A stretch of 64,000 nucleotides of DNA from Hyphomonadaceae bacterium (GTDB lineage: Bacteria > Pseudomonadota > Alphaproteobacteria > Caulobacterales > Aquidulcibacteraceae). Every line of letters begins with the position of its first letter. The first letter of the stretch is position 1. A model generated the notes under the pieces. It was given only the letters and a program-made list of their open reading frames with translations, did not search any database and was not told where the DNA came from. Positions 4,863 to 64,000 of the stretch are shown here, piece after piece. The stretch lies in contig JAIELJ010000006.1 of the NCBI GenBank assembly GCA_019753105.1, forward strand, positions 310,001 to 374,000. Direction: 5' to 3'. The translations under genes and the position numbers were made by a program.

Positions 4863-5264
4863 ATGACGCCGAAGCGCAGAACGCAGGACCGTGTCGAACG
4901 CAGCGCCCCCGTGCGCGCCTTCGCCATGCTCGCCGCGACGGTCGCGCTCTTCCTGCAAATCTTCGTCGTCCAGACGCACACGCACGTGCAGCCGCCCCTC
5001 GGCAGCTGGGGTCAAACGGAGACGGCAAGTCTCCACGCCGAAGGCGATGGTCACAACCACACCCATGTCGAGCTCGCGCACGATACGGTGGGCTGTATCG
5101 TCTGCGCCGTGCACGCCACGGCGGGCAGCGCGACATTGGCAGGCGCCGTTGTGCTCTCCGCTGCGCACAATGCCGCGTACGAAACCGCAGCGCGCGCTAT
5201 TCGTCGTGCGCCGCTGGCGATCACGCATTCCTGGCAAAGCCGCGCGCCGCCTCTCGCTCTCTAA
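4863..5264 (+). CDS. small His-rich membrane protein, probably zinc-linked
   Basis: A 133-residue protein with one N-terminal hydrophobic segment (about residues 17-36, FAMLAATVALFLQIFVVQ), followed by a His-rich outer part: THTHVQ, GDGHNHTHVELAH, then CIVC and VHA. Short His/Cys proteins of this build (DUF2946-like) are often encoded just ahead of metal-related TonB receptors, and may pass or sense metal in the periplasm. It ends 73 bp before the TonB receptor gene and sits just behind the Zur-like palindrome, so co-regulation by zinc is likely. The ATG at 4863 lies so close to the operator that the transcript may be leaderless or nearly so. Exact function unknown. Confidence 0.65.
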   Translation: MTPKRRTQDRVERSAPVRAFAMLAATVALFLQIFVVQTHTHVQPPLGSWGQTETASLHAEGDGHNHTHVELAHDTVGCIVCAVHATAGSATLAGAVVLSAAHNAAYETAARAIRRAPLAITHSWQSRAPPLAL

Positions 5265-5337
5265 GCACCGCTAACGCGCTCACGCTTGAGCGCACGCCGC
5301 GCGTTCGCGCGCGATCACTCCGCTTAGAGGCATTATC

Positions 5338-7338
5338 ATGCGTACCAGTTTTAAAGCATACCTGCTCGGCTTCGTCGCCTTCGCAGTCCTCGTTCCCAGC
5401 GCCGCCATGGCGCAAGACACCAACACCGAAGAAGAAGTCATCGTCACCGCCCCGCTCGAAGGCTCGCGCATCGAGAGCTTGCAGGGCGCGGAAGTGCTGC
5501 GCCGCGATGACATCATCGCCCAGCTCAATGGCGGCTTAGGCGATACGCTCGACGCAACGCCCGGCATCGCCACGACGTTCTTCGGCGCAGGCGCGAGCCG
5601 GCCGATCATTCGCGGCCTCGGCGAAGACCGCGTGCGCGTGCTGCAAAACGGCATCGGCACGATCGACGCCTCCACCGCATCACCGGATCACGCTGTCACG
5701 TCCGATGGCTTGGACGCCGAGCGGATCGAAATCTTGCGAGGCTCGGCAGCGCTGGCTTATGGCGGCAACGCCATTGGCGGCGTCGTCAATGTGATCGATC
5801 AATCAATCCCGACGCGCGCGGTCGACGGCCTGGAGTTCGAGGGCCTGCTCGCGGCTTCCAGCGTCGATGACGGCACGCATGGCGCGGGCCGCTTGCGCTT
5901 TGGCGCGGGCGACTTCGCGTTCAACCTCTCGGCCTCTGGCAGCCGCACCGATCCCTACGACACGCCGGTCGGCGTCGCCGCGAACCAGTTCACCGAGAAC
6001 CGCTCATACGGCCTCGGCGGCTCGATGCTCGGCGAGTGGGGCTTTGCGGGCCTCGCCATCAAGCGCACCGAAGACGAGTACGGCTTGCTGCCGCATCACG
6101 AAGACGAGCCAGCCGGCCGTATCGAACTTGAGCAAACGCGCATCGAGTCGCGCGGCGATTTCCGCGTGAACTGGGGCGCGTTCGATCGGCTCGATTACGG
6201 CATTCAGCATTCGGACTACGAGCACACCGAGTTCGAGGGTGACGGCGAGCCGGGCACGATCTTCAACAGCGAAGGCTATGAAGCGCGCCTCGAAGCCCAT
6301 CACCGCGGCGAACGTCTGCAAGGCGCGATCGGCCTTCAATACTCCGATGTCGATTTCGGCGCTGTCGGCGAAGAAGCGTTCATCACCGCGACCAACACGC
6401 AGGACACCGGGCTCTTCATCATTGAGCGCCTCGACTTCGGCGGCTGGGGCCTGGAAGGCGGCGCGCGCGTTGAGCGGCGTGAGTTAGACAACGTCACCGT
6501 CGGTGGTCGCGAGTTCGACACATGGGCGGCCTCTGGCGGCGTCTTCTTCCGCCCAGCGCAAAACTGGTTCGTCGGCGCCACCCTTGCCCGCACCGAACGC
6601 GCGCCGACAGCGGTTGAGCTCTTCTCTGACGGTCTGCACTTGGCGACGGAAAGCTATGAGATCGGCAATCCGGATCTCGATCCAGAAACCGCACTTTCGC
6701 TTGAAGGCTCGGTGCGTTTCGACAACGGGCGGATCAGCACCGAACTCAATCTCTATCGGATCGAGTTCGAGGACTACATCGCGCTGCTCGACACCGGCGT
6801 CATCTTCTGGGTCGATGAAGGCGCAGGGACTGATGGCTTCAGCCCGCCCGACGCAATTCCAGTCGGCGCTGAAGAGTTCGGCGTCTTCGGTTTCAGCCAA
6901 GAGGACGCGACGTTCGAAGGCGGCGAGTTCGCGATCCGCGCGCGTCTGTTCGAGGCCAACGGCATCGCGGTCAGCGCCGACGCTGCTTATGATTGGGTAC
7001 GCGCAAGCTTTGATGGCGGCGGCAATCCCCCGCGCATCCCGCCGTCTTCGCTGACGTTCGGCGTCACAGCTGACAGCACGCATTGGACAGGCCGCGTCGA
7101 AGTCGTCGATGTCGGCGAGCAAGATCGCCTCGCCGCGTTCGAGACCGCGACATCCGGCTATACGTTCTTGAACGCGAGCCTCGCCTTCCGCCCACAAGGT
7201 GAGGACAGCACTTGGTCTCTGCGCCTCGATGCTCGCAACCTGGGCGATGACTTGGGCCGCGTGCACTCCTCCTTCCTGAAGGACGATCTCGCGCTCCCGG
7301 GGCGCAACTTCCGGCTGACATTGCTGACGGAGTTCTAA
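5338..7338 (+). CDS. znuD: TonB-dependent receptor, ZnuD-like (zinc uptake)
   Basis: A 666-residue outer-membrane receptor. It has a signal peptide (to AMAQ, about residue 25), a TonB-box-like EEVIVTAP, and a plug domain with the pattern PIIRGLGEDRVRVLQNG ... ASPDHAVTSDGLDAERIEI and LRGSAALAYGGNAIGGVVNV. The SPDHA segment and the overall plug text resemble ZnuD-type zinc receptors rather than siderophore receptors. Acidic and His-containing segments such as LLPHHEDEPAG and HSDYEHTEFEGDGEPG look like the metal-binding outer loops of ZnuD. The barrel ends with a terminal aromatic residue (LLTEF), the signal for outer-membrane assembly. The Zur-like site upstream of the preceding His-rich gene supports zinc as substrate. 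Copper or another metal cannot be excluded. Confidence 0.8.
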   Translation: MRTSFKAYLLGFVAFAVLVPSAAMAQDTNTEEEVIVTAPLEGSRIESLQGAEVLRRDDIIAQLNGGLGDTLDATPGIATTFFGAGASRPIIRGLGEDRVRVLQNGIGTIDASTASPDHAVTSDGLDAERIEILRGSAALAYGGNAIGGVVNVIDQSIPTRAVDGLEFEGLLAASSVDDGTHGAGRLRFGAGDFAFNLSASGSRTDPYDTPVGVAANQFTENRSYGLGGSMLGEWGFAGLAIKRTEDEYGLLPHHEDEPAGRIELEQTRIESRGDFRVNWGAFDRLDYGIQHSDYEHTEFEGDGEPGTIFNSEGYEARLEAHHRGERLQGAIGLQYSDVDFGAVGEEAFITATNTQDTGLFIIERLDFGGWGLEGGARVERRELDNVTVGGREFDTWAASGGVFFRPAQNWFVGATLARTERAPTAVELFSDGLHLATESYEIGNPDLDPETALSLEGSVRFDNGRISTELNLYRIEFEDYIALLDTGVIFWVDEGAGTDGFSPPDAIPVGAEEFGVFGFSQEDATFEGGEFAIRARLFEANGIAVSADAAYDWVRASFDGGGNPPRIPPSSLTFGVTADSTHWTGRVEVVDVGEQDRLAAFETATSGYTFLNASLAFRPQGEDSTWSLRLDARNLGDDLGRVHSSFLKDDLALPGRNFRLTLLTEF

Positions 7339-49340: not shown

Positions 49341-49385
49341 TGGAGCGGGCGATGAGATTCGAACTCACGACCCCAACCTTGGCAA
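49341..49385 (-). other. 3' fragment of tRNA-Gly(GCC): attachment-site remnant
   Basis: On the minus strand the sequence runs TTGCCAAGGTTGGGGTCG, TGAGTTCGAATCTCAT, CGCCCGCTCCA: anticodon loop with GCC, variable loop, T-arm and acceptor end with CCA of tRNA-Gly(GCC). The T-stem GTGAG/CTCAT pairs properly. The part upstream of the anticodon (D-arm and 5' acceptor) is absent: after 49385 the sequence does not continue as tRNA. Integrases of this type cross over at the anticodon loop and leave such a 3' half at one end; the complete tRNA should be at the other end, beyond this window. Confidence 0.85.
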
Positions 49386-49605: not shown

Positions 49606-51000
49606 ATGGACGGCTTGCGCGCCCGCATCACGCTTCGGCTGATTGACGCAACCATTCCGCCCGCGGATGGCGAGCTCCGAATCTGGGACACCGATGTTCG
49701 CGGCTTCATGCTGCGCATCGCCTCCAGCGGTCGAAAAACCTATGGGCTCAAGTATCGCTATCATAACCGCCAGCGCTGGCTGACCATTGGCGAGCACGGC
49801 TCGCCTTGGACTCCCGACACTGCCCGTAGCAAGGCCAAGGAAGCGCTCTACCAGGCCAGTCACGGTGAAGACCCCCAGGCCTCAAAGCTGGAGACGCGCC
49901 TCAAGAGCGGCACGGTCAAAGAACTGTTTGAGCGCTATTTCGTCGAAGGGCGGATCGATCGGCCCTTAAAGCGCGAAAGCTCCTGGAAGGTCGATCGCTA
50001 CAATTATCAGCGCCATATTGAGCCCCTGCTCGGCAAGCGCATCGCCCGTGAACTCACACTTTCCGACCTCTCGCAGTTTCAGGCGCAGGTGGCGCACGGC
50101 AAGACGTCGATCGACGTGAAGACCCGCAAGCAGGGCCGCGCAATCGTGCGGGGCGGCACGGGCGCCGCAGCCCGATCGATGCGCACGCTCTCGGCGATGC
50201 TGTCTTGGGCGGTGCGCCACGAGATTCTCGACCAGAACCTCTGCAGCAAGATCCAGAAATATCGCGATCAGATGCGTGAGCGCGCTTTGACCGAAGTGGA
50301 AGCGCAGCGGCTCTGGACCATGATCGGCGAAGCCGAGAAAGCCTGGGTAATCACCAAGGATTTCGCCGACATCTTCCGACTCATTATGCTGACAGGCGCG
50401 CGGCGTACCGAGATCGTCGCGTTGCGCTGGTCCGAAGTTGACCTGGCGCGCATGCGCCTGGTGCTGCCGCCTGTGCGCACCAAGATGGGCGCGCTCAATC
50501 GATCGCGCTTCATTGCGCTCTCGCAGCCAGCCGTGGAGGTGCTGGAAAGCGTGAAACGCCGCGGCGAGCATGTCTTTCCCTCATCCGTGGGAGACAAGCC
50601 CCTCGTTGGCGTCAATCGCGCCTGGGAGAAAGTGCGTACCTTGGCCGGCATCCCGGACGTGCGCCTGCACGACCTTCGCCACAGCTTTGCGACCTTCGCC
50701 GTCGAAAGCGGAGCGCCGCTCTACCATGTCGGTCGCGCGCTCGGGCACTCGAAGACCACCACGACGGAGCGCTATGCGCATCCTTCCGACGCGGGAGCCC
50801 GGGCGGTTGCGTCTGAGGTGGCGGCGCGCTTCGTCACCGTGCCAGCGCCGGCGAATGACGCCGCCGCTGCTGGCGATGCCGAATGCGGACCCTGTGAGCT
50901 CACGCCGGCCCTAACGTCCGTAAGTCCCGCGCTGCGGACGCGGCGACAAGCAAATCTGAAAGAGCTTCTCAGAGCTGCGGCCCGGACTCGACCTGCCTAA
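49606..51000 (+). CDS. tyrosine-type integrase (P4/arm-domain family)
   Basis: A 464-residue site-specific recombinase. The N-terminal arm-binding domain (VRGFMLRIASSGRKTYGLKYRYHNRQRWLTIGEHGS, about residues 28-62) is the DUF4102-like type of P4 integrases, which use tRNA genes as targets. The core-binding helices follow (about 100-190), then the catalytic domain: first Arg in LTGARRTEIVALRW (about 267), the HxxR box HDLRHSFAT (His355, Arg358), GHSKTTTTERYAHP (His381, Tyr390). All active residues are present, so it should be functional. It starts 221 bp from the tRNA fragment and reads into the element. Confidence 0.95.
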   Translation: MDGLRARITLRLIDATIPPADGELRIWDTDVRGFMLRIASSGRKTYGLKYRYHNRQRWLTIGEHGSPWTPDTARSKAKEALYQASHGEDPQASKLETRLKSGTVKELFERYFVEGRIDRPLKRESSWKVDRYNYQRHIEPLLGKRIARELTLSDLSQFQAQVAHGKTSIDVKTRKQGRAIVRGGTGAAARSMRTLSAMLSWAVRHEILDQNLCSKIQKYRDQMRERALTEVEAQRLWTMIGEAEKAWVITKDFADIFRLIMLTGARRTEIVALRWSEVDLARMRLVLPPVRTKMGALNRSRFIALSQPAVEVLESVKRRGEHVFPSSVGDKPLVGVNRAWEKVRTLAGIPDVRLHDLRHSFATFAVESGAPLYHVGRALGHSKTTTTERYAHPSDAGARAVASEVAARFVTVPAPANDAAAAGDAECGPCELTPALTSVSPALRTRRQANLKELLRAAARTRPA

Positions 51001-51216: not shown

Positions 51217-52668
51217 TCAGCCAGCCCAGTAGGGAATGTACTTCGCGCCCTTTCTGGCCGAGCCGGTGTCAGCGGGCTTGATCCGATTTTCTTTCTTCGC
51301 CGCCGTAATCAGATCGGTGACGGCTTGATAGTCGTCCTTGGCGAGTCCAAATCGCGCCCTCAGCGACGCATTGCTCATGTAATCCTGAACTTCGAACCGA
51401 AGCGCGCAATGAAAGTACAAGGCGCGCATCTTCTCTGCGCGAGACAATTGTTTGAACGGCTTGGCCGTGAAAACAATAACACGCATACTGTTTCCGGACA
51501 TGATGAAGTCTGGCGCGGGCAGCAGGGAATCCTCGGCCGCTTTGAACGTTCGATCGAGACCGCTTCCTCGCTCTTCGCAGAGATTTAGCTCACGCATCGC
51601 GTTCGCTAGTTTTTCGTTCCGCGATTTGCGGTCGTTTAGGATCATGTCCTTTTCGACCAAGGAATCACCAGGGTTCGATATTTCGATCCGGTTGGAAAAG
51701 ACCTCCACCATCGGACCAGCACCGTTCACTGATAAATCTTGGTGCACCAGGGCGTTTGCGATTGTCTCGCGCAAGATGTCATCGTGGTACGGATACACTG
51801 TCGTGCGTATCCCGTTGATCAGCTTCTCTTCTGCAAGCGGCTCTCTGACACGTCCAAGCAGTTCCTCAAACCCGCATGCATAGCCCTTAGCGATCGTTTG
51901 CTCGGGGCTCGCCCTCGCCTTATCGATACCCTTGTAGTGCACAACACGGACGCGTTTGCTCGCTAATGTCTCAAACGAGCCAAGGTCATGGGCGAGCATC
52001 AACGCGCCGAGATTGGTGATGTCAAAAGTCCCTTCGAGTGTGTCTCGGAGGTAGCCCTTACTGACAAGCCGCGTCAAAGCCGCGGATAACAACTGCGGCT
52101 TCGGCGTCTTAGACAGGGTGTAAAAGGCATCAACATCCAGTCGAACGGCCACCTGTTCCGCTGTGATCCCCATAGCCGCTGCGCCTTGCTCGAACGAGAC
52201 GCGAGAGGTCGCGCGATACAGTGCTGCAGTTACTGGATCGTCGGGTTTTGGCTTCTTGAGGTTTTCGCCTATGCGCACCCAAATCTCGCTCTTGTAGGCG
52301 ACGGGCGCGGCATAGCTCGGCGCGATCTCAATTATCGCGCACTTGCGGCCGTCGCACTGAAAATCGTGGAGGTTGACCTGGATTGCAGGGCTGATGACGC
52401 GCTGAATCCAATTTTGAAAATTCTCGTTGCCGATCTTCTTGCTCTTCAGCGCGACCGTAGTGCCGACGATTTTGTGTGTCGCGTCCTCTACGCCGAACAC
52501 CAGGAAGCCTCGCTCCTGCCCGGCCAAAATTGCGGCGTTGGACAGGCCCGCAACGTATTGCGCTATTCTGTCGTGATCCCAGGCGCTCTCCTTGAATTCG
52601 AGCCACGACTCCTCCGCCGGTCTCTCGACCAAGGTCTTCAACAAAGCGCAGGGGTCACTGATCGTCAT
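51217..52668 (-). CDS. AlbA_2-domain / GHKL-ATPase transcription regulator
   Basis: A 483-residue protein. Residues about 15-130 are an AlbA_2 (Schlafen-type) domain: EESWLEFKESAWDHDRIAQYVAGLSNAAILAG, RGFLVFGVEDATHKIVGT. A middle part has winged-helix character (GYLRDTLEGTFDITNLGALML), and about 290-400 is a HATPase_c_4 unit: YHDDILRETIANALVHQDLS, VEVFSNRIEISNPGDSL and LCEERGSGLDRTFKA. The C-terminus adds another winged helix (SNASLRARFGLAKDDYQAVTDLITAAKK). Such proteins are predicted DNA-binding regulators found often on mobile elements and near defence genes; none of the close ones is well characterised. Three 20-bp repeats lie upstream. Confidence 0.85.
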   Translation of the reverse strand: MTISDPCALLKTLVERPAEESWLEFKESAWDHDRIAQYVAGLSNAAILAGQERGFLVFGVEDATHKIVGTTVALKSKKIGNENFQNWIQRVISPAIQVNLHDFQCDGRKCAIIEIAPSYAAPVAYKSEIWVRIGENLKKPKPDDPVTAALYRATSRVSFEQGAAAMGITAEQVAVRLDVDAFYTLSKTPKPQLLSAALTRLVSKGYLRDTLEGTFDITNLGALMLAHDLGSFETLASKRVRVVHYKGIDKARASPEQTIAKGYACGFEELLGRVREPLAEEKLINGIRTTVYPYHDDILRETIANALVHQDLSVNGAGPMVEVFSNRIEISNPGDSLVEKDMILNDRKSRNEKLANAMRELNLCEERGSGLDRTFKAAEDSLLPAPDFIMSGNSMRVIVFTAKPFKQLSRAEKMRALYFHCALRFEVQDYMSNASLRARFGLAKDDYQAVTDLITAAKKENRIKPADTGSARKGAKYIPYWAG

Positions 52669-53651: not shown

Positions 53652-53801
53652 GCGGCGCTCTTAACTCAAACGATCGTGCAAGTCAGCTTTCGACGCGCGC
53701 GCCTGAACCTTTGCAGACCGCGCCGACATACAACTTCCCAAAGTTCGTCGAGCTGCTTCGGCCGGTCTGGGTTGGCGCTCCATGGCTCAACTCACGGAGC
53801 C

Positions 53802-53957
53802 CGCCAGGGACGATCCCCGACGTCGTCTCAAGCCGCGCGTCGCGTGCATGCAGCGCAACGGCTCACGCCGTCTTCCACTCCGTTGCAGCCCGTTGGGTGC
53901 GCCGCACGCCACTTGCGCCGCGCCAAGCGGCTCCGACGCCGGGGATCGTCCCTGGCG
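53802..53957 (+). repeat. 24-bp inverted repeat in the leader of the ardC-like gene
   Basis: The arms 53802-53825 and 53934-53957 match as inverted copies at 23 of 24 positions (core GCCAGGGACGATCCCCG), with 108 bp between them. The right arm ends 16 bp before the ardC start and just ahead of its GGAGA ribosome-binding site. The RNA could form one long stem, or the two arms could be sites for a dimeric protein. The rest of 53652-53973 (322 bp) holds no convincing gene. Confidence 0.7.
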
Positions 53958-53973
53958 CATCGGAGAACTCGCC

Positions 53974-54897
53974 ATGTTGTGCGTCAATACCCCAGCGACC
54001 GAACCTCGCCTCACCCCAGCCGCGCGGGTCACCAGCGCCATTCTAGAGGCGCTCAAGCGCGATGTGCGACCGTGGACACGTCCTTGGTCCACCAATACTT
54101 CGATCTCGCTTCCGCTGCGCGCGAATGGCCTTCCGTACAAAGGCGTCAACACCATCGCGCTCTGGGCTGCCGCGCTCGAACACGGGTACGCCTCGCCTTA
54201 CTGGCTCACCTTCAAGCAAGCACAAGCGCTCAAAGCCCGCGTGCGCAAAGGCGAGCGCGGCGCCTTTGTTGTCTATTACGGCGAACGTCTGGTTCGCGAC
54301 GACGCTGCCGAAGAGGCACCGGAAGCGTCCGCTCGTACACAGCGCATCCTGCGCGGATATTCCGTCTTTTGCGCGGACCAGGTCGAAGGCCTGCCCGAAG
54401 AATTCTATCCGTCCGCGCCTGCTTCTGCGCCGCTTTCAGAGCGGGAGGCCCAGCTCCTTCTGCAAATCGAACGCATTCCGGCCATCGTGCGTCACGGCGG
54501 CAACCGCGCGTATTATGCTCCCGCCTCCGACGCGATCCACCTGCCATCACGTGAGAGCTTCGCCGGCATCGGCAGCTATCTGATCACGCGTCTGCACGAG
54601 AGTGCGCACTGGACGCGCGCGTCGAGCAGGCTCGACCGTGATTTTGGCGCCAAACGCTTCGGCGATGCCGGCTATGCGCTGGAAGAACTCGTCGCTGAGC
54701 TTTCGGCCGCCATGGTCGGCGCGACGCTCAACGTGCCCGGCGATCATGTTGAGGATCACGCCTGCTATATCGACTCATGGCTCAAGGTTCTGGAGAGCCA
54801 ACCGTCCGCCTTCCTCTCCGCTGCTGGCAAGGCGCAGCAAGCGTGCGACTATCTTCTGCAGTTCATCGACGCGCCACCGCCCGAGCCACCCGGCTGA
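53974..54897 (+). CDS. ardC: ArdC-like antirestriction protein with zincin domain
   Basis: A 307-residue protein. The N-terminal ssDNA-binding domain (DUF1738) reads VTSAILEALKRDVRPWTRPW, LPYKGVNTIALWAAALEHGY and YWLTFKQAQALKARVRKGERG. The C-terminal metallopeptidase-like domain has HESAHW (His208-Glu209-x2-His212) and the third ligand region ALEELVAELSAA. ArdC proteins on conjugative elements protect entering single-stranded DNA from host restriction. Start at ATG 53974 is supported by GGAGA at 53961-53965; the long frame from 53782 covers the inverted repeat and is not protein-like. Placement beside the mobility genes fits a role during transfer. Confidence 0.9.
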   Translation: MLCVNTPATEPRLTPAARVTSAILEALKRDVRPWTRPWSTNTSISLPLRANGLPYKGVNTIALWAAALEHGYASPYWLTFKQAQALKARVRKGERGAFVVYYGERLVRDDAAEEAPEASARTQRILRGYSVFCADQVEGLPEEFYPSAPASAPLSEREAQLLLQIERIPAIVRHGGNRAYYAPASDAIHLPSRESFAGIGSYLITRLHESAHWTRASSRLDRDFGAKRFGDAGYALEELVAELSAAMVGATLNVPGDHVEDHACYIDSWLKVLESQPSAFLSAAGKAQQACDYLLQFIDAPPPEPPG

Positions 54898-56322: not shown

Positions 56323-56498
56323 CCCTCTCACTGCTTCCTCCCTGCTGCTTTCGATGTTGATCTTCACGCGCAACCTCGGTGCCGATGAAGAAAGTAGTTG
56401 CGGGAATAACAAGGAAAAAGACGAAGGGTTGATGGCAAGATAGAATGCGCCGCAGTGCTGGATGCACAGCGGCTTGTCTGCACATCTTTTTTTCCACC

Positions 56499-56530
56499 GC
56501 ACCACAAGGTGCGCTGCCGCAAAGTGCGGC
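56499..56530 (+). other. clustered inverted repeats, candidate oriT
   Basis: GCACC-ACAA-GGTGC (56499-56512) and GCCGCA-AAG-TGCGGC (56516-56530) are two adjoining perfect inverted repeats, 46 bp upstream of the relaxase start and between it and the divergent HTH gene. Relaxases of this class act at oriT sites that usually lie next to their gene and carry such repeats. The nick site cannot be placed from this sequence alone. Confidence 0.4.
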
Positions 56531-56575
56531 AAGGTGAGGAGAGCCGCTTTGCGCTGCCAAGAAGGGCGCGACGCG

Positions 56576-58564
56576 ATGGATGACGAAGACAAATTCGAAG
56601 GCGATGTCAGCCGGCGTCGCGCTAGGCGCACGCAAGACTCAAGCTCGATGTTTCGCCCGCCCTCCGCCGCCAGCTCCAAGCGCGTTGCAGCACGCGCGCG
56701 CGCGGCCTGGTACAATCGGAGCCGCGGCGCGGGCACCGTCAAACTGAAGCACGAGCGGCCCGCCGGCAGCCAGCGCGTGGTGGTGAAGATACACCCCAAG
56801 GTCCACGCGAAGGCGGCAGGCGGCGCGGGGTCGCTGATGCGGCACACGCTTTATGTCGAACGCGACGGCGCCGGCCGCGATGGCGACGCGGTCCAGGTGT
56901 TTGACCGCGAGTACGACCGGGCAGACGGCGCTGCCTTCGTCGAACGCTGCGAAGGCGACCGCCACCATTTCCGGGTGATAATCTCGCCTGAGCGCGGCGC
57001 CGCCATAGACGATCTTAAGGGCTACACGCGCGACGTGATGCGGACGGTGGAATCGGACCTCGACACCCGCATCGACTGGATCGCGGCCGAGCATCACGAC
57101 ACCGGCCATGCCCACGTGCACTTGCTGATGCGGGGCGTCCGGGCAGATGGACGCGACCTGGTCATCCCGCGCTCTTATGTTTCCCACGGTTTCCGGGAGC
57201 GGGCCGAAGGCCTCGCCACCGAGCTGCTGGGCCCGCGCCTAGAACCCGACCGCGCCGATCGGGCGGTGAAGCAGGAACGCCTCACTGAGCTTGACCGCGA
57301 GCTCGTCGCACGCTCGCGCGGCCAAGAGATCGCGATGAGCGCGCTGCCCGAGGATGGCGTGCGCGCCGCCCGGCTCGTGCAGCGGCTCAACCGGCTGGAA
57401 GAACTGGGCTTGGCTGAACCAGCTCGCGCGGGCGTGTGGAGGCTCGATGCCGAGCTTGAGGAGAAACTCATCCGCCTCGGCGATAGGCGCGACCGCGAGC
57501 GCGCCACCGCCCGATTGCTGGCGCAGGAGCAACGGTGGCTCGAACCCGAGCGCACGCGCGAACTGGAGGCGGCGCATTCGAGCCAGCGCGTTAGCGGGCG
57601 CTTGGTTGGCTTTGAACGTCTCGGCGAAGACGCGCGCGGACCGCAGCTTGTCGGCGTGGAAGGCATCGACGGCAGATTCTGGACGGCCCGCGTGGCCAGT
57701 CCCGAAGATCTGCGCGGGCTCGCCGGCGTCGATCGCGGCGCCATCGTCGAGATTGAGCGCGCGACGCCGGACTTGAAGGCGTCAGACCGCACGATCTGGG
57801 AGATCGCGCAGGAGAACGATCGTACCTATTCGGCGGCGCTCCATCGGCAAGCGCGGCCGACCGATCGCGCGAACTACATCGAGATGCATGAGCGCAGGCT
57901 GGAAGCGCTCCGACGCGATGGCGTTGTCAGCCGCGAACGCGACGGCACGTTCTATCTACCCCACGACTACCCTGCCCAAGTGGCGATGCGCGAAGGGCGG
58001 GGCGGACGCGAAAACGCGCGCGTGACGCTGATCGATCCGCACGCGCTTGAACGGCAGGCTGAGTATCCCGGCCCGACTTGGCTCGACCGCATCGCGGACG
58101 GCCGCGAAGACAAAAGCCAGATGCGCGGCGAAGGCTTTGGCGCTGAGATCGGCAAAGCCTGGAAGCAGCGGGAAGCGACGCTGGAGAAGCTCGGCTTGGG
58201 CGAGCGCGGCCCAGACGGCTTCCAGGCCATGCCCGGTTGGCGCGACAGCCTTTCTTCGCTTGAGCAGGAAACTCTTCGCGACCGCATCGAGCGCGACACC
58301 GGGCGCGTGGCGCATTTCGCGCGCGAAGGCGAGCGTGTGCATGGGCTCTACACCGGGCGCATCCATCTCGCCGAACAGAGCTTCGCCTTGATCGAGCACG
58401 ACCGCACCGCAACGCTCGCGCCTTGGCGGCCGGCGATGGATCGCGCGCTCAATCAGTTCGTCGCGGGCCAAGTCAAAGGCATGAATTTCGACTTCAAGTA
58501 CGGGCGCGGCGTCGAGAAAGAGATCACCAAGGCGTTGGGGCTCGACATCGGCGGGCGCGGATAG
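56576..58564 (+). CDS. mobilization relaxase (VirD2-like, DUF3363)
   Basis: A 662-residue relaxase that would nick one strand at oriT and guide it into the recipient. The N-terminal nuclease part has SLMRHTLYVERDGAGRDG, GDRHHFRVIISPERG, and the metal-binding triad HAHVH at 178-182 within EHHDTGHAHVHLLMRG. The middle and C-terminal parts (YSAALHRQARPTDRANYIEMHERRLEALRRDGVV and MNFDFKYGRGVEKE) are the DUF3363 region found in this group. The nucleophile Tyr is probably near the N-terminus (WYNRSRG) or in HTLYVE; I cannot decide. Start at ATG 56576; the open frame begins at 56462 but the region upstream holds the inverted repeats. No TraG/VirD4 follows. Confidence 0.9.
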   Translation: MDDEDKFEGDVSRRRARRTQDSSSMFRPPSAASSKRVAARARAAWYNRSRGAGTVKLKHERPAGSQRVVVKIHPKVHAKAAGGAGSLMRHTLYVERDGAGRDGDAVQVFDREYDRADGAAFVERCEGDRHHFRVIISPERGAAIDDLKGYTRDVMRTVESDLDTRIDWIAAEHHDTGHAHVHLLMRGVRADGRDLVIPRSYVSHGFRERAEGLATELLGPRLEPDRADRAVKQERLTELDRELVARSRGQEIAMSALPEDGVRAARLVQRLNRLEELGLAEPARAGVWRLDAELEEKLIRLGDRRDRERATARLLAQEQRWLEPERTRELEAAHSSQRVSGRLVGFERLGEDARGPQLVGVEGIDGRFWTARVASPEDLRGLAGVDRGAIVEIERATPDLKASDRTIWEIAQENDRTYSAALHRQARPTDRANYIEMHERRLEALRRDGVVSRERDGTFYLPHDYPAQVAMREGRGGRENARVTLIDPHALERQAEYPGPTWLDRIADGREDKSQMRGEGFGAEIGKAWKQREATLEKLGLGERGPDGFQAMPGWRDSLSSLEQETLRDRIERDTGRVAHFAREGERVHGLYTGRIHLAEQSFALIEHDRTATLAPWRPAMDRALNQFVAGQVKGMNFDFKYGRGVEKEITKALGLDIGGRG

Positions 58565-58719
58565 CGTGGCGCGGCGTCTCCTGCTGTTGCCTCTTGTGGG
58601 TCGATCCACGCCTTGGTCGTTGGCGGGACGATCGTCCGCGCAAAGCACCTCGATGAATTTGTTTGCCGTAAAGCGAACTGAAGTCCGGCGAGCACTTAGG
58701 CATCGACGCCCGACCCCAT

Positions 58720-61700
58720 CTAGATGAACAGTCTATAGTCATAAGATGAAGTACCAAAGCGCTGGAGCAAAGCGCCAATGCGGGCGATCTCACTGGAGGA
58801 TTGGAGTGTCGCTGGCATCTTCGTATAGAGGTCGAAGGTGTTCCAGTTCATCTTGGAAAGGCCGAGAATTTCACGGCAGAGCTGATCAAGCGGTGTCGCG
58901 CCCGCGTGACGACGGACGGTCAGCGGAGACGGGATGCGACGCTTCCCTTGGAAATACGTCTTGCGGAGGTTCACTGCTTGCGTGGCACCGTGCAGCCAGA
59001 GCAAGGCGGAATAATCGTCGAGACGCATCACCGTGCCTCGTCGGACAGGATAACCATCTTCGTCGATAGAGCCGTTCGGGCGTGTGATCGAGGCCATGAA
59101 GCGCAGTGCGCTGTCTTCCTGAATCTCTAGCATGTCTATGGCTTCGACGCCGCCCAATCCATCGAGGAAACCCTCGCGCTCATCGAGCAGGAACGGTGTT
59201 TTTTTGTGAAGAACGACGCGGCGCGGAAGCTTCATACGCGCGTCGAAAAAGAGCTGACGGATCGTCTCGCCAGTACGGCGTGCATCATCGCGAGACATGA
59301 ACGGATTCCTGCCACGAATGATGGGGTTTTCGACCTTGCTCAGCCGGTACTGCAAACCTTCGCCGCGCGAGCTGTAGATGTGACTGCATCCTAAAACAAC
59401 ATGCGAGCCTTTCTTCGCATACGCATCGAGGCTGAAGCCGAGGCCGATATAGGCAGTGTCGCCGTCGAGTCCGTCGAGAACCCATGGCGTCCGCATCCCT
59501 TTGGCGTAGAGCGCAAGCGAGAGCCACCACCAGACGCGGGCAGGTTGGCCGTCAGACAGCGTTTCTTCATCGAGAAACTGCGTGGCTGCGCCGCGCTGAA
59601 CGGCGTACGCCTTTACGAAATCATGGACATCGAAGTGCTCGTATTCGTCGCGATACTCGCGATATGCCTGCCACCGCTTGGGCGTAAGAATGATCGTCAC
59701 GTGCGGCGCATAGGTGGAGCGGAGTGTTTCGATAGCCGCCGTGATGTTTTGTGCCACTTGCGTCGCGGCCACCTTGGGATTGGTACTGGCGGGTTCGTTA
59801 CACGTTACCCAACCGGCCGAGCCAAGGTGCGGAAGTTCAAGCGGCAGACCGAAGGCCGTTTGGAATCCCGGGTAGTCGAGCAGATAGTCCCGCTCGCTGT
59901 CGTTCGGGCGGTGCAGCGTGTTTGCAGATTGCAGGTATCGCTCAAGATTGGCTGCTTCCGGCTTGGCGCAAATGACGCCGATGCGGAGCATCGGCGCCAG
60001 TCCCTTGACCGTCAGTGGAAAGTCGAATGGACGGTTTTCAAGGACCCCTCGGATCGGGTGCGTGTCCGTCTTCGTGCTGGTCGCGGACTTGTCGCTGAAC
60101 ACAAGCGTGGGTTCTGGCAGTTCCACACCGTCATACTTGATGAGCGGACGTAGCTTGTCGGAGATTGTCGGTGTCGCCGTAGCGTTCGGCAGACCTATCT
60201 GCGCAAACACCGGCGAGCGCCTTAGCGTGAACTTGAAGCCTGACGCAACGCCGCGTGGAAATTCAAACACGGCGGGATTCTTCGAGAGCAGCAGCTCGCG
60301 CCACTTGTTGACGGCAGCGTTGAACTCTTTGTTGTGCTGGTAGCCAAGGATACGGAGCTTGATGGGTCCGGCGACAGTGTGCGGGACATCCTTGCCCATA
60401 CTATCGAGCACCTTCAGCGAGGGCTTCAGGACTGCATACTGGCTTGCGCCTATGCGACGGAGGAAGATCACAAAAGATTCGTGAACAACGTAATCGCCTT
60501 GCCGCTTTAGCGGTCGCGTGTCCCACAATTCGCTTCGGCCATCGTAGCCGAGCTTGCCTTCTTCCGACATCGAGCGCGCCAGCGCCTCGCGCATGATGCC
60601 AACGATTGCGCCATCCTCGCGCCGTAACTCGTCGGGACTGACCGGCGTGCGCTCGATGCTTCCCTTGATATTGCCACGGAACGCATCGTTGATGTCGTCG
60701 AGTGTGCCAAGCGCCACCACCTTGCCCTTGAGGGGCGCGGCTACGATTGCCCGTTTTCCGACTTGCTCGCGCAGCCACGACCACACCTTTTCGGTCGGCC
60801 ATGTCTTCAACTCGAAAGCAAATACCTCGCTGGGACATTCGATCTCGAAGGCATTGCTCTTGATGATCGTCTTGCCCTGATACGTCGGCAACTTGAATGG
60901 CTGGCGGGTCAGCAAATCCGCCGGAGCCATCGCTACGATTTCCTTGCGCGCCGCCTCGCGCGCATTCCCCTCAAGGCAGTGGAGCGTCAGGCGGGTCATA
61001 AGGTCGTCAAAACCAAGCGCAGGCACATAATAGGCTTGACGGCCATTTGCGCGGGCGTGGGCGATTAGCTTGCGAACGCACTCTGGCGCATCGGCGTCGC
61101 TGTAGCCGCACCAGTAGAGGACTCCGTTGCCGCGCTGGCTGAAAGCCGCCTCCAACGTCTCCATAATGGTAGCGTCACGCCCGCTGTATCCACAGACTAT
61201 AAGCGAGTGTTGCTTGAGATTATCAGCCAGCGCCGCGCTGAGCGCGGCTTCAACCTGCTGGATCTCGTCAGGTGTATTCTTCAGTTCGTCGTAGCGATAA
61301 TCGCCGTGCATCGAGACACAGAGCAATTCGCCGACGTTGGGCGCGCGAGAGAGACGTTGCTGCGTGTCGATCCCCACTTCCAGAGGGGAGAGGCTAAAAT
61401 CGGCGGCCGCGCGCGCGGTCAAACCGTCGAAGTTCGGCGACCACACCGAGCGAATAATGTCTTCCTGCGCGAGATGACATAGCAAGCGGTAGCCGATGTG
61501 CGGACGCGCCCCACGGCTCCGCGTTTGGAAATACGCCCGCCGATCGTCCCCAATCGGAAAACAGGTGCGGATGTAGAACCCATACTCGCCGGGCGATCCT
61601 TCGGGCGGATACGTGCCTTGCTTGTCAAGCCAATGCTGAATCCGCTGGCGGACGCTGGGCAAAGATAGCTCGCGGAATTGCTCTTCAAGTCCGGGGTTGT

Positions 61701-61965
61701 TCGTCAGGAAGAGATTGCGCTTCCATTCCCACACGCACGAGTCCGCAGAGGGTATACCAGAACTGACTGACGCCCCCGCTCCGATGAACAACGTGTGCGG
61801 AGTGGCTTTGCGCACGCCGACCGAACGCACAAGCGCGTCGAGCGCAAGCGTGATCTCTCTATCTTGCGGAGATGCTTGGTCTGACTGCGCGGCGCTCACT
61901 TCTGCACCATCTCTTTGTTGTGGAGCTCGCGATGCCGCGAGCGATGCCCGGAACAAGCGAATCAA
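58720..61965 (-). CDS. single-chain Sir2-APAZ-PIWI short Argonaute (SPARSA-type defence)
   Basis: A 1081-residue fusion. Residues about 50-330 are Sir2: FIGAGASVSSG (GAGAS 62-66), SPNFDG (Asn178), SMHGD (His220), VCGYSGRDATIME; the NADase residues Asn and His are present. About 350-640 fits an APAZ region. About 690-840 is MID, with HDFVKAYAVQRGAATQF, whose Lys and Gln bind the guide 5' end. About 840-1081 is PIWI; GLGFSLDAYAKKGSHVVL lacks the catalytic Asp, as expected for a guide-directed but non-cutting short Argonaute. In known SPARSA systems guide-target pairing turns on NAD+ loss and cell death. Start codon TTG 61965 is the frame limit; GTG 61899 is an alternative. Gene 155 bp from the relaxase, convergent. 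Confidence 0.88.
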   Translation of the reverse strand: MIRLFRASLAASRAPQQRDGAEVSAAQSDQASPQDREITLALDALVRSVGVRKATPHTLFIGAGASVSSGIPSADSCVWEWKRNLFLTNNPGLEEQFRELSLPSVRQRIQHWLDKQGTYPPEGSPGEYGFYIRTCFPIGDDRRAYFQTRSRGARPHIGYRLLCHLAQEDIIRSVWSPNFDGLTARAAADFSLSPLEVGIDTQQRLSRAPNVGELLCVSMHGDYRYDELKNTPDEIQQVEAALSAALADNLKQHSLIVCGYSGRDATIMETLEAAFSQRGNGVLYWCGYSDADAPECVRKLIAHARANGRQAYYVPALGFDDLMTRLTLHCLEGNAREAARKEIVAMAPADLLTRQPFKLPTYQGKTIIKSNAFEIECPSEVFAFELKTWPTEKVWSWLREQVGKRAIVAAPLKGKVVALGTLDDINDAFRGNIKGSIERTPVSPDELRREDGAIVGIMREALARSMSEEGKLGYDGRSELWDTRPLKRQGDYVVHESFVIFLRRIGASQYAVLKPSLKVLDSMGKDVPHTVAGPIKLRILGYQHNKEFNAAVNKWRELLLSKNPAVFEFPRGVASGFKFTLRRSPVFAQIGLPNATATPTISDKLRPLIKYDGVELPEPTLVFSDKSATSTKTDTHPIRGVLENRPFDFPLTVKGLAPMLRIGVICAKPEAANLERYLQSANTLHRPNDSERDYLLDYPGFQTAFGLPLELPHLGSAGWVTCNEPASTNPKVAATQVAQNITAAIETLRSTYAPHVTIILTPKRWQAYREYRDEYEHFDVHDFVKAYAVQRGAATQFLDEETLSDGQPARVWWWLSLALYAKGMRTPWVLDGLDGDTAYIGLGFSLDAYAKKGSHVVLGCSHIYSSRGEGLQYRLSKVENPIIRGRNPFMSRDDARRTGETIRQLFFDARMKLPRRVVLHKKTPFLLDEREGFLDGLGGVEAIDMLEIQEDSALRFMASITRPNGSIDEDGYPVRRGTVMRLDDYSALLWLHGATQAVNLRKTYFQGKRRIPSPLTVRRHAGATPLDQLCREILGLSKMNWNTFDLYTKMPATLQSSSEIARIGALLQRFGTSSYDYRLFI

Positions 61966-62114
61966 ATCAAAAACAAAAGAGGAACGCTGACATAACTTGC
62001 CGCAGTCAACAAGCGGGTGGCGGTTACCCTTGTACGAGGTGACGAACTAGCCGGCAACTTGAGTTCAGTTTGCCTGACCTGCCGACGGCCTGCCGCGGGT
62101 TGGGAATTTTGCCG

Positions 62115-63719
62115 TTATAGTTGTCGCTTCAAATACGACTGATAGGCAGGAGACGCTTTCACAAAGTGGGCTCGACCATCGACGACAAAGCCATCCAACC
62201 CCTGCTCCAACACGTACCTCGAAAGATCGCTCATTCTATTGATGAATCCGCGACCGTTGAAATTCAAAGAAGTGTTGCACAAAACGCCAAAGCCTGTGCG
62301 CTCTCTGAAAACTTCCAGCAAGCCATACAGCGAGGGATTGCTCGTCTCTGACACGGTTTGAATACGCGCCGTACCGTTAATGTGCGTGACCGCTGGCAAC
62401 GCATCAGTCTTGGCGTGGAACGTATATAACATGTGTTCGCTCGGACTGGCGCAACCAAACCAGCGCAGGGCATCTTCCTCCAAGCAAACAGGGGCGATCG
62501 GCCGAAATTGTTCTCGTTGCTTGATCTCGTTGAGTCGCACACGAGTGGTCTCGTTAAACGGTGCTGCGAGAATAGACCGATTGCCCAATGCGCGCGGGCC
62601 TATTTCGTATGCCCCACTGACCCAGCCAAGAATTAAGCCTCCCGCGATGGCGTTGGCCACCACATCGTTGCTCGGTCCGAAGACATCATACGGCGCCGGA
62701 TCAAAACGGTCGGCGATGAACGCTCGCCCCGAGTATACGCTCCATTCGATCTTCGGCTCTCCAGTGAAATAGTTTTGTGCGTCGATTGCCGTGCCGATCG
62801 CTGCACCGGAATCGTTTGCGACTGGTGGGACAAAAACTTCCGAGAAGAGGCCGCTGTCCCGCCACTTGGAATTCCAGTCACAGTTCAACCCGCACCCACC
62901 CACGATGAGTAATGGGAGTCCGCGGTTAAGATGGGTTTTTGCAAACTTGTAGAAGACGTTGAATAACGCATCGCTGAAGATTCCTGCGAAATTCCGAAAC
63001 TCCGCGTCGTTGTGCCCCGCATCGTGGTACGGTGAGTTCTCTATGCCTTTGTAGGCGCTCCAACCTCTGTAGGGCCCATCCAAGAGAAAGCTCATTAGCT
63101 CCTTCTCGTGGGTTGAAGGTGTGCTTCGAGTTGAATACGACGCCAGCGCCATAAGCTTTCCTGCATCGGAAGACCGGGGGAAGGGACCGTTCTTCGGGAA
63201 GGTCGGGTCCGCCAAACCGTAAAGCACGCCATAGCGATTGCCCGGCGCCTCCAAGACGTCTGCTACCAGCGTTATGTTGAGATCGGCGTCGATCTCATAG
63301 AATGAGCCTAACTTACCTTCCCAGATGAGCGCATAGCATCGAGTCCTTTTGGGTAGGTTTGACATCCCGAAGGCACAGAGTAGGTGCGCGCGTTCGTGCG
63401 ACGATGAAAAATGGCGGACTGATTTGCCGAAAAGACGTCGCTCGCTAACGATGACGTCGTCGCTCGACACACCGCGGTAGCCAAAGTGTGCGTCGGAGCC
63501 ATTTAGAAACTCATAGTGATCTCGGGCCCACCAACCGGAAGTACACACCACATCTGGCACTTCTTCGACCTCACCGAGAACCGACAGTATCTCAGGAGCG
63601 TACAGAGGCGCATAGCGTACGTTAGAGTCCTTCTCCGCCTCGATTGAGAACTGTAACCGGCCGTCTTGAATGAATGCGATGGCACCGTCGTGACCTGGGT
63701 TCAGCGAAAGAATTTTCAT
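62115..63719 (-). CDS. NodU/TobZ-type O-carbamoyltransferase
   Basis: A 534-residue enzyme of the carbamoyltransferase family, which moves the carbamoyl group of carbamoyl phosphate, through carbamoyl-AMP, to a hydroxyl. N-terminal ASKHA-like part: LSLNPGHDGAIAFIQDG, HERAHLLCAFGMS (metal His residues), LLIVGGCGLNCDWN. C-terminal part: LGWVSGAYEIGPRALGNRSILAAP and KQREQFRPIAPVCLEE, the family signature, then VTHINGTARIQTV and LCNTSLNFNGRG. All key segments are present. I start it at ATG 63719 (MKILSLNPG); the frame reaches 63887. It lies 149 bp upstream of the Argonaute gene on the same strand. Known acceptors are antibiotics and Nod factors, and in viruses modified DNA bases. Confidence 0.88.
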   Translation of the reverse strand: MKILSLNPGHDGAIAFIQDGRLQFSIEAEKDSNVRYAPLYAPEILSVLGEVEEVPDVVCTSGWWARDHYEFLNGSDAHFGYRGVSSDDVIVSERRLFGKSVRHFSSSHERAHLLCAFGMSNLPKRTRCYALIWEGKLGSFYEIDADLNITLVADVLEAPGNRYGVLYGLADPTFPKNGPFPRSSDAGKLMALASYSTRSTPSTHEKELMSFLLDGPYRGWSAYKGIENSPYHDAGHNDAEFRNFAGIFSDALFNVFYKFAKTHLNRGLPLLIVGGCGLNCDWNSKWRDSGLFSEVFVPPVANDSGAAIGTAIDAQNYFTGEPKIEWSVYSGRAFIADRFDPAPYDVFGPSNDVVANAIAGGLILGWVSGAYEIGPRALGNRSILAAPFNETTRVRLNEIKQREQFRPIAPVCLEEDALRWFGCASPSEHMLYTFHAKTDALPAVTHINGTARIQTVSETSNPSLYGLLEVFRERTGFGVLCNTSLNFNGRGFINRMSDLSRYVLEQGLDGFVVDGRAHFVKASPAYQSYLKRQL

Positions 63720-64000
63720 ATTTCTAACCTGGTGACGTCCGGGCTCGCAGTTGCACTTAGTTATGCAGCTGTCGACCGGCGCTCTTGCGTGGTGCAGTTT
63801 TACATCAAGGCAACCTGCGGTATAAAGCGGCATCGCGAGGAGAGGCACTGAGAAATCTGATCGCTCGCGGTCGAATGCGTCAGCCAACGTTGGTGGATTT
63901 CACTGCGACTACGAACCGACATACCTGCCGAAGATGCTCAGCGCTCGGAATTCATCCGACAGTTGGTACAAAAACCACCGCCTGAGCCCCCACGCGGTCA
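63720..64000. other. right end of window, no gene assigned
   Basis: 281 bp upstream of the carbamoyltransferase. It should hold that gene's promoter. A plus-strand frame is open from 63861 to the window end but has no start codon in reach, so I do not call it. No tRNA or copy of the attachment sequence is visible here. Confidence 0.5.

Follow-up and report, generated by a model that had tools for sequence, protein, structure and literature searches.

The subject of this report is a single-chain short prokaryotic Argonaute (pAgo) encoded by a Hyphomonadaceae bacterium, in a stretch of 64,000 nucleotides (contig JAIELJ010000006.1, positions 310,001 to 374,000) that is called the window below. 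Its gene occupies window positions 58720..61965 on the reverse strand and lies on an integrative, probably mobilisable element at a tRNA-Gly gene. Very probably, the product is a SPARSA of clade S1A, acting as a guide-directed, NAD+-depleting abortive-infection protein and carried by the element as cargo. The order of the domains, the conserved residues, the absence of the PIWI tetrad, the fold, the clade, the ends of the element and the cargo slot were established in this analysis, while the types of guide and target, the activation, the loss of NAD+ and the abortive infection are proposed by analogy with GsSPARSA, in which Sir2-APAZ and pAgo are two proteins. Judged by its sequence, the protein is an ordinary, well-preserved S1A SPARSA, with no new domain and no rearrangement relative to its clade.

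Domain architecture and predicted fold

The longest open reading frame (ORF) at this locus begins at a TTG, stays open for 1081 codons, and places SIR2, APAZ, MID and PIWI within one polypeptide, the arrangement by which single-chain SPARSA of clade S1A are recognised. The PADLOC pAgo model PDLC02384 covers residues 38–1081 (E = 0) and the PADLOC SIR2 model PDLC02420 matches at E = 5.6e-196; Pfam detected SIR2_2 alone (residues 173–291, E = 1.4e-8). The closest solved structures by sequence are the two chains of SPARSA, with the pAgo chain aligning to residues 615–1080 (E = 6e-50) and the Sir2 chain to residues 59–358 (E = 2.3e-31), and a profile built from 33 aligned sequences reached them at E = 2.8e-74 and 2.5e-54, respectively. 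In the solved entries that were matched, Sir2 and Piwi are separate chains. Structure prediction and search, which the original prediction had named as its test, returned Argonautes only among the best 50 matches listed by each search, in agreement with the sequence models.

Relatives and distribution

One genome scan gave 41 related loci, and the 33 aligned rows comprise the window protein and 32 full-length single ORFs. The nine loci left out have a broken frame (L008, L033), are partial at contig ends (L027, L029, L030), or hold a C-terminal piece only (L037, L038, L040, L042). The last four preserve just the final ~50–115 residues of a fused Argonaute and are perhaps remnants. Hosts of the fused forms belong to the Pseudomonadota, Planctomycetota, Acidobacteriota, Gemmatimonadota, Verrucomicrobiota, Chloroflexota and Candidatus Latescibacterota. 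In a tree of the MID-PIWI region from 33 fused and six split sequences, a branch supported at 100/100 sets all fused forms apart from the split ones; some split rows and three of the fused rows were flagged for long branches. The window protein shares its one-chain domain order, full-length alignment and invariant residues with clade S1A (APAZ group Ia) and lies within it. It is 46% identical over the alignment to a member of that clade, the fused gene product of Paraburkholderia graminis C4D1M (L026), and its closest relative is from Roseitalea (L035, 70%). In the tree it clusters with the Roseitalea sequence (74% over 480 columns) and with one from a gammaproteobacterial metagenome-assembled genome (support 100/98), which suggests horizontal transfer of the gene. 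A P. graminis protein was reportedly tested by Zaremba et al. in 2022.

The original prediction counted fused forms as the minority, with one Burkholderia-type example known; a reading of this protein as a rare fusion is not supported by the literature or by the 32 full-length relatives found here. In a 2018 survey, 106 short pAgos, all on one monophyletic branch, carry APAZ within their own chain, and 102 of these also have SIR2 (PMC6299218); the fused SIR2-APAZ clade was named S1A in a 2024 paper (PMC11156904). At 1e-20, five of 385 genomes drawn from the window's class (its own included) gave any match, and the fused gene was present in its own genome only. Among 72,556 plasmid records, 23 matched at this threshold. 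Two-gene SPARSA account for the four matches of greatest width, the remaining 19 span at most 38% of the query, and no full-length fused form was seen. Separately, one of 50,697 phage records, an unannotated contig of 7.3 kb, matches residues 38–647 at 31%.

Catalytic and guide-pocket residues

The residues expected of an NADase coupled to an inactive PIWI are all in place. Counted on the sequence alignment to the solved chain, N178 and H220 correspond to N142 and H186 of GsSir2, alanine mutants of which abolish NADase activity (PMC10781750), and both are invariant in 33/33 fused and 6/6 split rows. In the MID pocket, H781, K785 and Q796 are invariant in all 39 rows and align with H166, K170 and Q181 of GsAgo; the contacts to the guide 5' phosphate named in the GsSPARSA paper are H166, 'K70' and Q181, and we have read 'K70' as K170. 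The catalytic acids of Thermus Argonaute align with G843, P888, K922 and S1058, the second column being uncertain, and with the same reservation no fused row has an acid at any tetrad column. Since these acids are missing, the PIWI domain of the window protein should sense its target rather than cut it. The NADase motifs, the MID Lys/Gln pair and the absence of catalytic Asp, all of which had been picked out from the single sequence, are confirmed.

By analogy with GsSPARSA, which has all of these domains, the Asn/His pair, the guide pocket and a dead PIWI, the MID pocket would bind a small guide RNA by its 5' end, the guide would pair with invading DNA, and the PIWI domain would shift shape without cutting. 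This change would switch on the N-terminal SIR2 NADase (Asn178/His220), probably via oligomers, and the fall in NAD+ would lead to growth arrest or cell death before the invader spreads. The window type differs from GsSPARSA in being one chain, whose halves are joined by a stretch of 17–21 residues (as counted from 590 to 610), and in belonging to a separate clade. Several observations weigh against carrying the scheme over unchanged. The Sir2-APAZ part of the predicted model aligns to solved chains at a root-mean-square deviation of 6.0 (8y80_E) to 10.0 (8jl0_A) and the predicted TM score (pTM) is 0.66, so the relative pose of the domains is unconfirmed. Mutating F158 or H166 in the GsSPARSA guide pocket left NAD+ degradation largely unchanged (PMC10474274), and conservation of the pocket is therefore no proof that sensing of the 5' phosphate drives activation. 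Finally, E196 is invariant in 33/33 fused rows and absent from 6/6 split rows, so control of the NADase may differ from that in GsSPARSA.

This residue, specific to the fused rows among those examined, could also be taken to mean that the SIR2 domain is something other than an NADase, so that recognising a target would result in damaged DNA or modified proteins, and the 2018 survey did term such domains nucleases (PMC6299218), which is an older reading. We regard this as most improbable, given that the Asn/His pair required for NAD+ hydrolysis by GsSPARSA is invariant in every fused row and that the profile also matched the ThsA NADase (E = 0.0019).

Translation start

The in-frame candidates for a start are TTG at codons 1 and 4 and GTG at codons 23 and 46. 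The GTG at codon 23 (position 61899) has the best Shine-Dalgarno match, AAGAGA (4/6, with a rather long spacer of 10 nt), and lies 39 codons ahead of the GAGAS motif, compared with 61 for the TTG. Among 13 of 19 relatives for which starts were compared, plausible ones are mostly 26–48 codons ahead of GAGAS; the ATG starts of L003, L005 and L006 lie 40 codons ahead and the ATG of L035 37 ahead. Residues 1–36 are disordered in the predicted model. The TTG is disfavoured on all three counts, and the coding sequence is more likely 58720..61899 on the reverse strand, with a product that is probably 1059 aa long; the chain of 1081 residues first proposed holds for the longest ORF and not for the probable protein. 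The argument that expression is held low by a TTG without a ribosome site likewise falls away, because a better GTG start is found 22 codons further in.

If the TTG were nevertheless the start, the want of an evident ribosome site would fit an idle or decayed copy that arrived with the element and is no longer made or active, and decay does occur in the family: the frame is broken at two of the 41 related loci, and at four others a C-terminal piece alone is present. Against this, the window gene has 1081 stop-free codons, retains every catalytic and guide-pocket residue and has a usable GTG start, and a dead copy is accordingly very unlikely.

An integrative, probably mobilisable element

The placement of the gene on a tRNA-Gly integrative element also proved correct. 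A 24-mer at 49343, which occurs just twice in the genome when up to two mismatches are allowed, extends to a 45-bp direct repeat, of which one copy (49341..49385, attL) duplicates the 3' end of tRNA-Gly(gcc) and the other lies beyond the window, at C1:389864-389908, within the intact tRNA gene (C1:389864-389938). With its integrase and its direct repeats, one of them inside a tRNA gene, the region has the make-up of an integrative element of ~30.5 kb, the final 15.9 kb of which are outside the window. From attL, the forward strand encodes a tyrosine integrase (49606..51000; Pfam Phage_integrase, E = 4.5e-22), an ArdC-type anti-restriction protein (53782..54897; ArdcN, E = 1.4e-31, and MPTase-PolyVal, E = 1.1e-38) and a relaxase with DUF3363 (56462..58564; DUF3363, E = 1.4e-70; Relaxase, E = 6.9e-4, below cut-off), which is convergent with the Argonaute gene and whose plasmid relatives are annotated RlxS. 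The reverse strand encodes a Schlafen/AlbA_2 protein (51217..52668; SLFN_AlbA_2, E = 9.4e-20) and, upstream of the Argonaute gene in the same slot, a carbamoyltransferase (62115..63887; Carbam_trans_C, E = 1.7e-52). Two glycosyltransferase-like genes are also present. Pfam found no conjugation family among 17 element ORFs, with the small ORFs only partly scanned. Neither of two pattern matches to the relaxase among viral contigs was a relative.

Druantia type II consists of DruE2, DruF2 and DruM2 side by side. Such genes occupy a second slot at the tRNA-proximal end of the element (L045:6900-16614), where PADLOC identified DruE2 (E = 0), DruF2 (E = 1.8e-145) and a methylase matching DruM2 (E = 7.9e-69) and, better, the generic MTase_II model (E = 4.7e-77). 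Within the part beyond the window, a single ORF at L045:1750-3903 (window-equivalent 64750-66903) combines glycosyltransferase 25, a weak sulfotransferase match and glycosyl hydrolase 16. Behind slot 1, two small proteins without a Pfam or PADLOC match (L045:4434-4892 and 5147-5608) have relatives in 7/11 sister elements.

The company of a relaxase, ArdC and Druantia II raises the question of what the Argonaute is directed against. By the same mechanism, its main role could be to guard the niche of the element against competing plasmids and mobile elements rather than phages, and incoming mobile elements are named as the target of short pAgo/NADase systems in the title of a cited reference. 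The literature, however, presents GsSPARSA as an antiphage system (PMC10781750), and no result of this analysis discriminates between plasmid and phage targets; a primary role of this kind is conceivable and on the whole rather unlikely.

A cargo slot behind the relaxase

The relaxase has a match at 1e-30 in 44/60 genomes of the window's family (its own included). One copy per genome was compared, with its surroundings, for 11 further genomes; nine belong to the same genus as the window, and the remaining two, G397 and G413, share its family. In G397, G419 and G421 backbone similarity breaks off at 58592/58593, 28 bp beyond the stop codon of the relaxase, and it is regained at window-equivalent 67534–67548 in G421, G397, G437 and G434, which delimits a cargo slot (slot 1) of which 58594..64000 lies in the window. 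Its contents are a partial annotation, with ORFs picked by size and place and examined by PADLOC (20, two being the SPARSA genes of G434) or Pfam (10). Besides the window Argonaute, the slot holds retron III-A reverse transcriptase and phosphoribosyltransferase genes with a SIR2-STAND-TPR protein in G421 (L076:10585-16540), PD-Lambda-2 A/B genes with MazG_C and HMUDK_hel proteins in G437, a nuclease of pAgo-associated type with modest scores (E = 4e-9 and 2e-7) in G397, and a two-gene SPARSA in G434. It is shorter than 2 kb in G413, G415, G418, G420, G432 and G436, and in G419 it runs toward the contig end, with a metal ATPase present. Among the 12 copies including the window, then, five carry annotated defence genes in slot 1, six are nearly empty and one is the copy at the contig end.

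A slot specialised for NADase systems was considered and dropped: the TIR genes in G420 and G432 are beyond a conserved ~160-bp block and belong to slot 2, and slot 1 also has systems without an NADase domain, in G437 and G397. The start of slot 2 is marked by this block, which is GC-rich (L045:6552-6716, window-equivalent 69552-69716), 80–88% identical in 7/11 sister elements and inside longer matches in 2/11, while neighbouring genes diverge; it has two matches in the window's own genome. This block is a candidate origin of transfer (oriT) or other cis-acting site. As a known RNA it was rejected, Rfam giving no match in L045 at the gathering threshold except tRNA, and the covariation term of the consensus fold being unfavourable (+2.22).

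Integration functions vary among the sister elements. The 45-bp att is present at both ends without mismatch in G421, G420 and G432, as a single copy in G418 and as a single copy with two mismatches in G437; none was found in the other six fetched sets, and other tRNAs lie nearby in G434, G436, G397 and G415. Within the fetched stretches the window integrase has no match in G434, G436, G397, G419 or G413 and matches at 36–43% in G415 and G418, so the common part is the mobilisation module and not always the integrase. Outside the family, in Sphingomonas sp. Ant H11 (L033:7956-13677), a fused Argonaute gene whose frame is broken into two ORFs likewise has a relaxase of this type (33% over 583 aa) behind it in convergent orientation.

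Fused and split SPARSA in the same slot

The two-gene SPARSA of G434 (L088) comes from the same genus and occupies the same slot behind a related relaxase in the same convergent orientation. Its genes overlap by 4 nt and encode a pAgo (PDLC02377, E = 4.1e-180), with Asp at the first tetrad position only, and a Sir2-APAZ protein (PDLC02419, E = 1.3e-177), which are 31% identical to the corresponding halves of the window protein. With this low identity and their separate clades, the sequences indicate two separate acquisitions or a very old divergence, and not a recent fission. It may be speculated that the slot next to the RlxS-type relaxase serves for defence exchange in this bacterial family, where S1A and two-gene SPARSA have replaced each other at one position and in one orientation, a reading that is offered tentatively. 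It would resemble the defence hotspots of P2 and P4 (Rousset et al. 2022, PMC9122126), sites in a mobile backbone with different anti-phage systems in each copy, except that this slot belongs to a probably mobilisable element with an RlxS/DUF3363 relaxase, which is neither a phage nor a satellite.

The SPARSA structures matched here have separate chains, whereas the single-chain proteins form a large clade. For AfAgo, a comparison of the native split form with an engineered single chain yielded no explanation for the benefit of splitting; its authors assume little functional difference and propose that single chains were split during evolution (PMC10954474). As fused and split SPARSA occur in the same slot of related elements within one genus, the question can be tested in one genetic background. 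The slot also shows that a small mobilisable module carries immune cargo which differs from copy to copy and is interchangeable, with SPARSA, retron III-A genes and PD-Lambda-2 genes as examples. If the exchange-site reading is true, the window and G434 systems would offer a naturally matched comparison for asking what favours fusion or splitting of Argonaute systems, and a distinct mode of NADase control would be signalled by E196, which among the rows examined is invariant in the fused ones alone.
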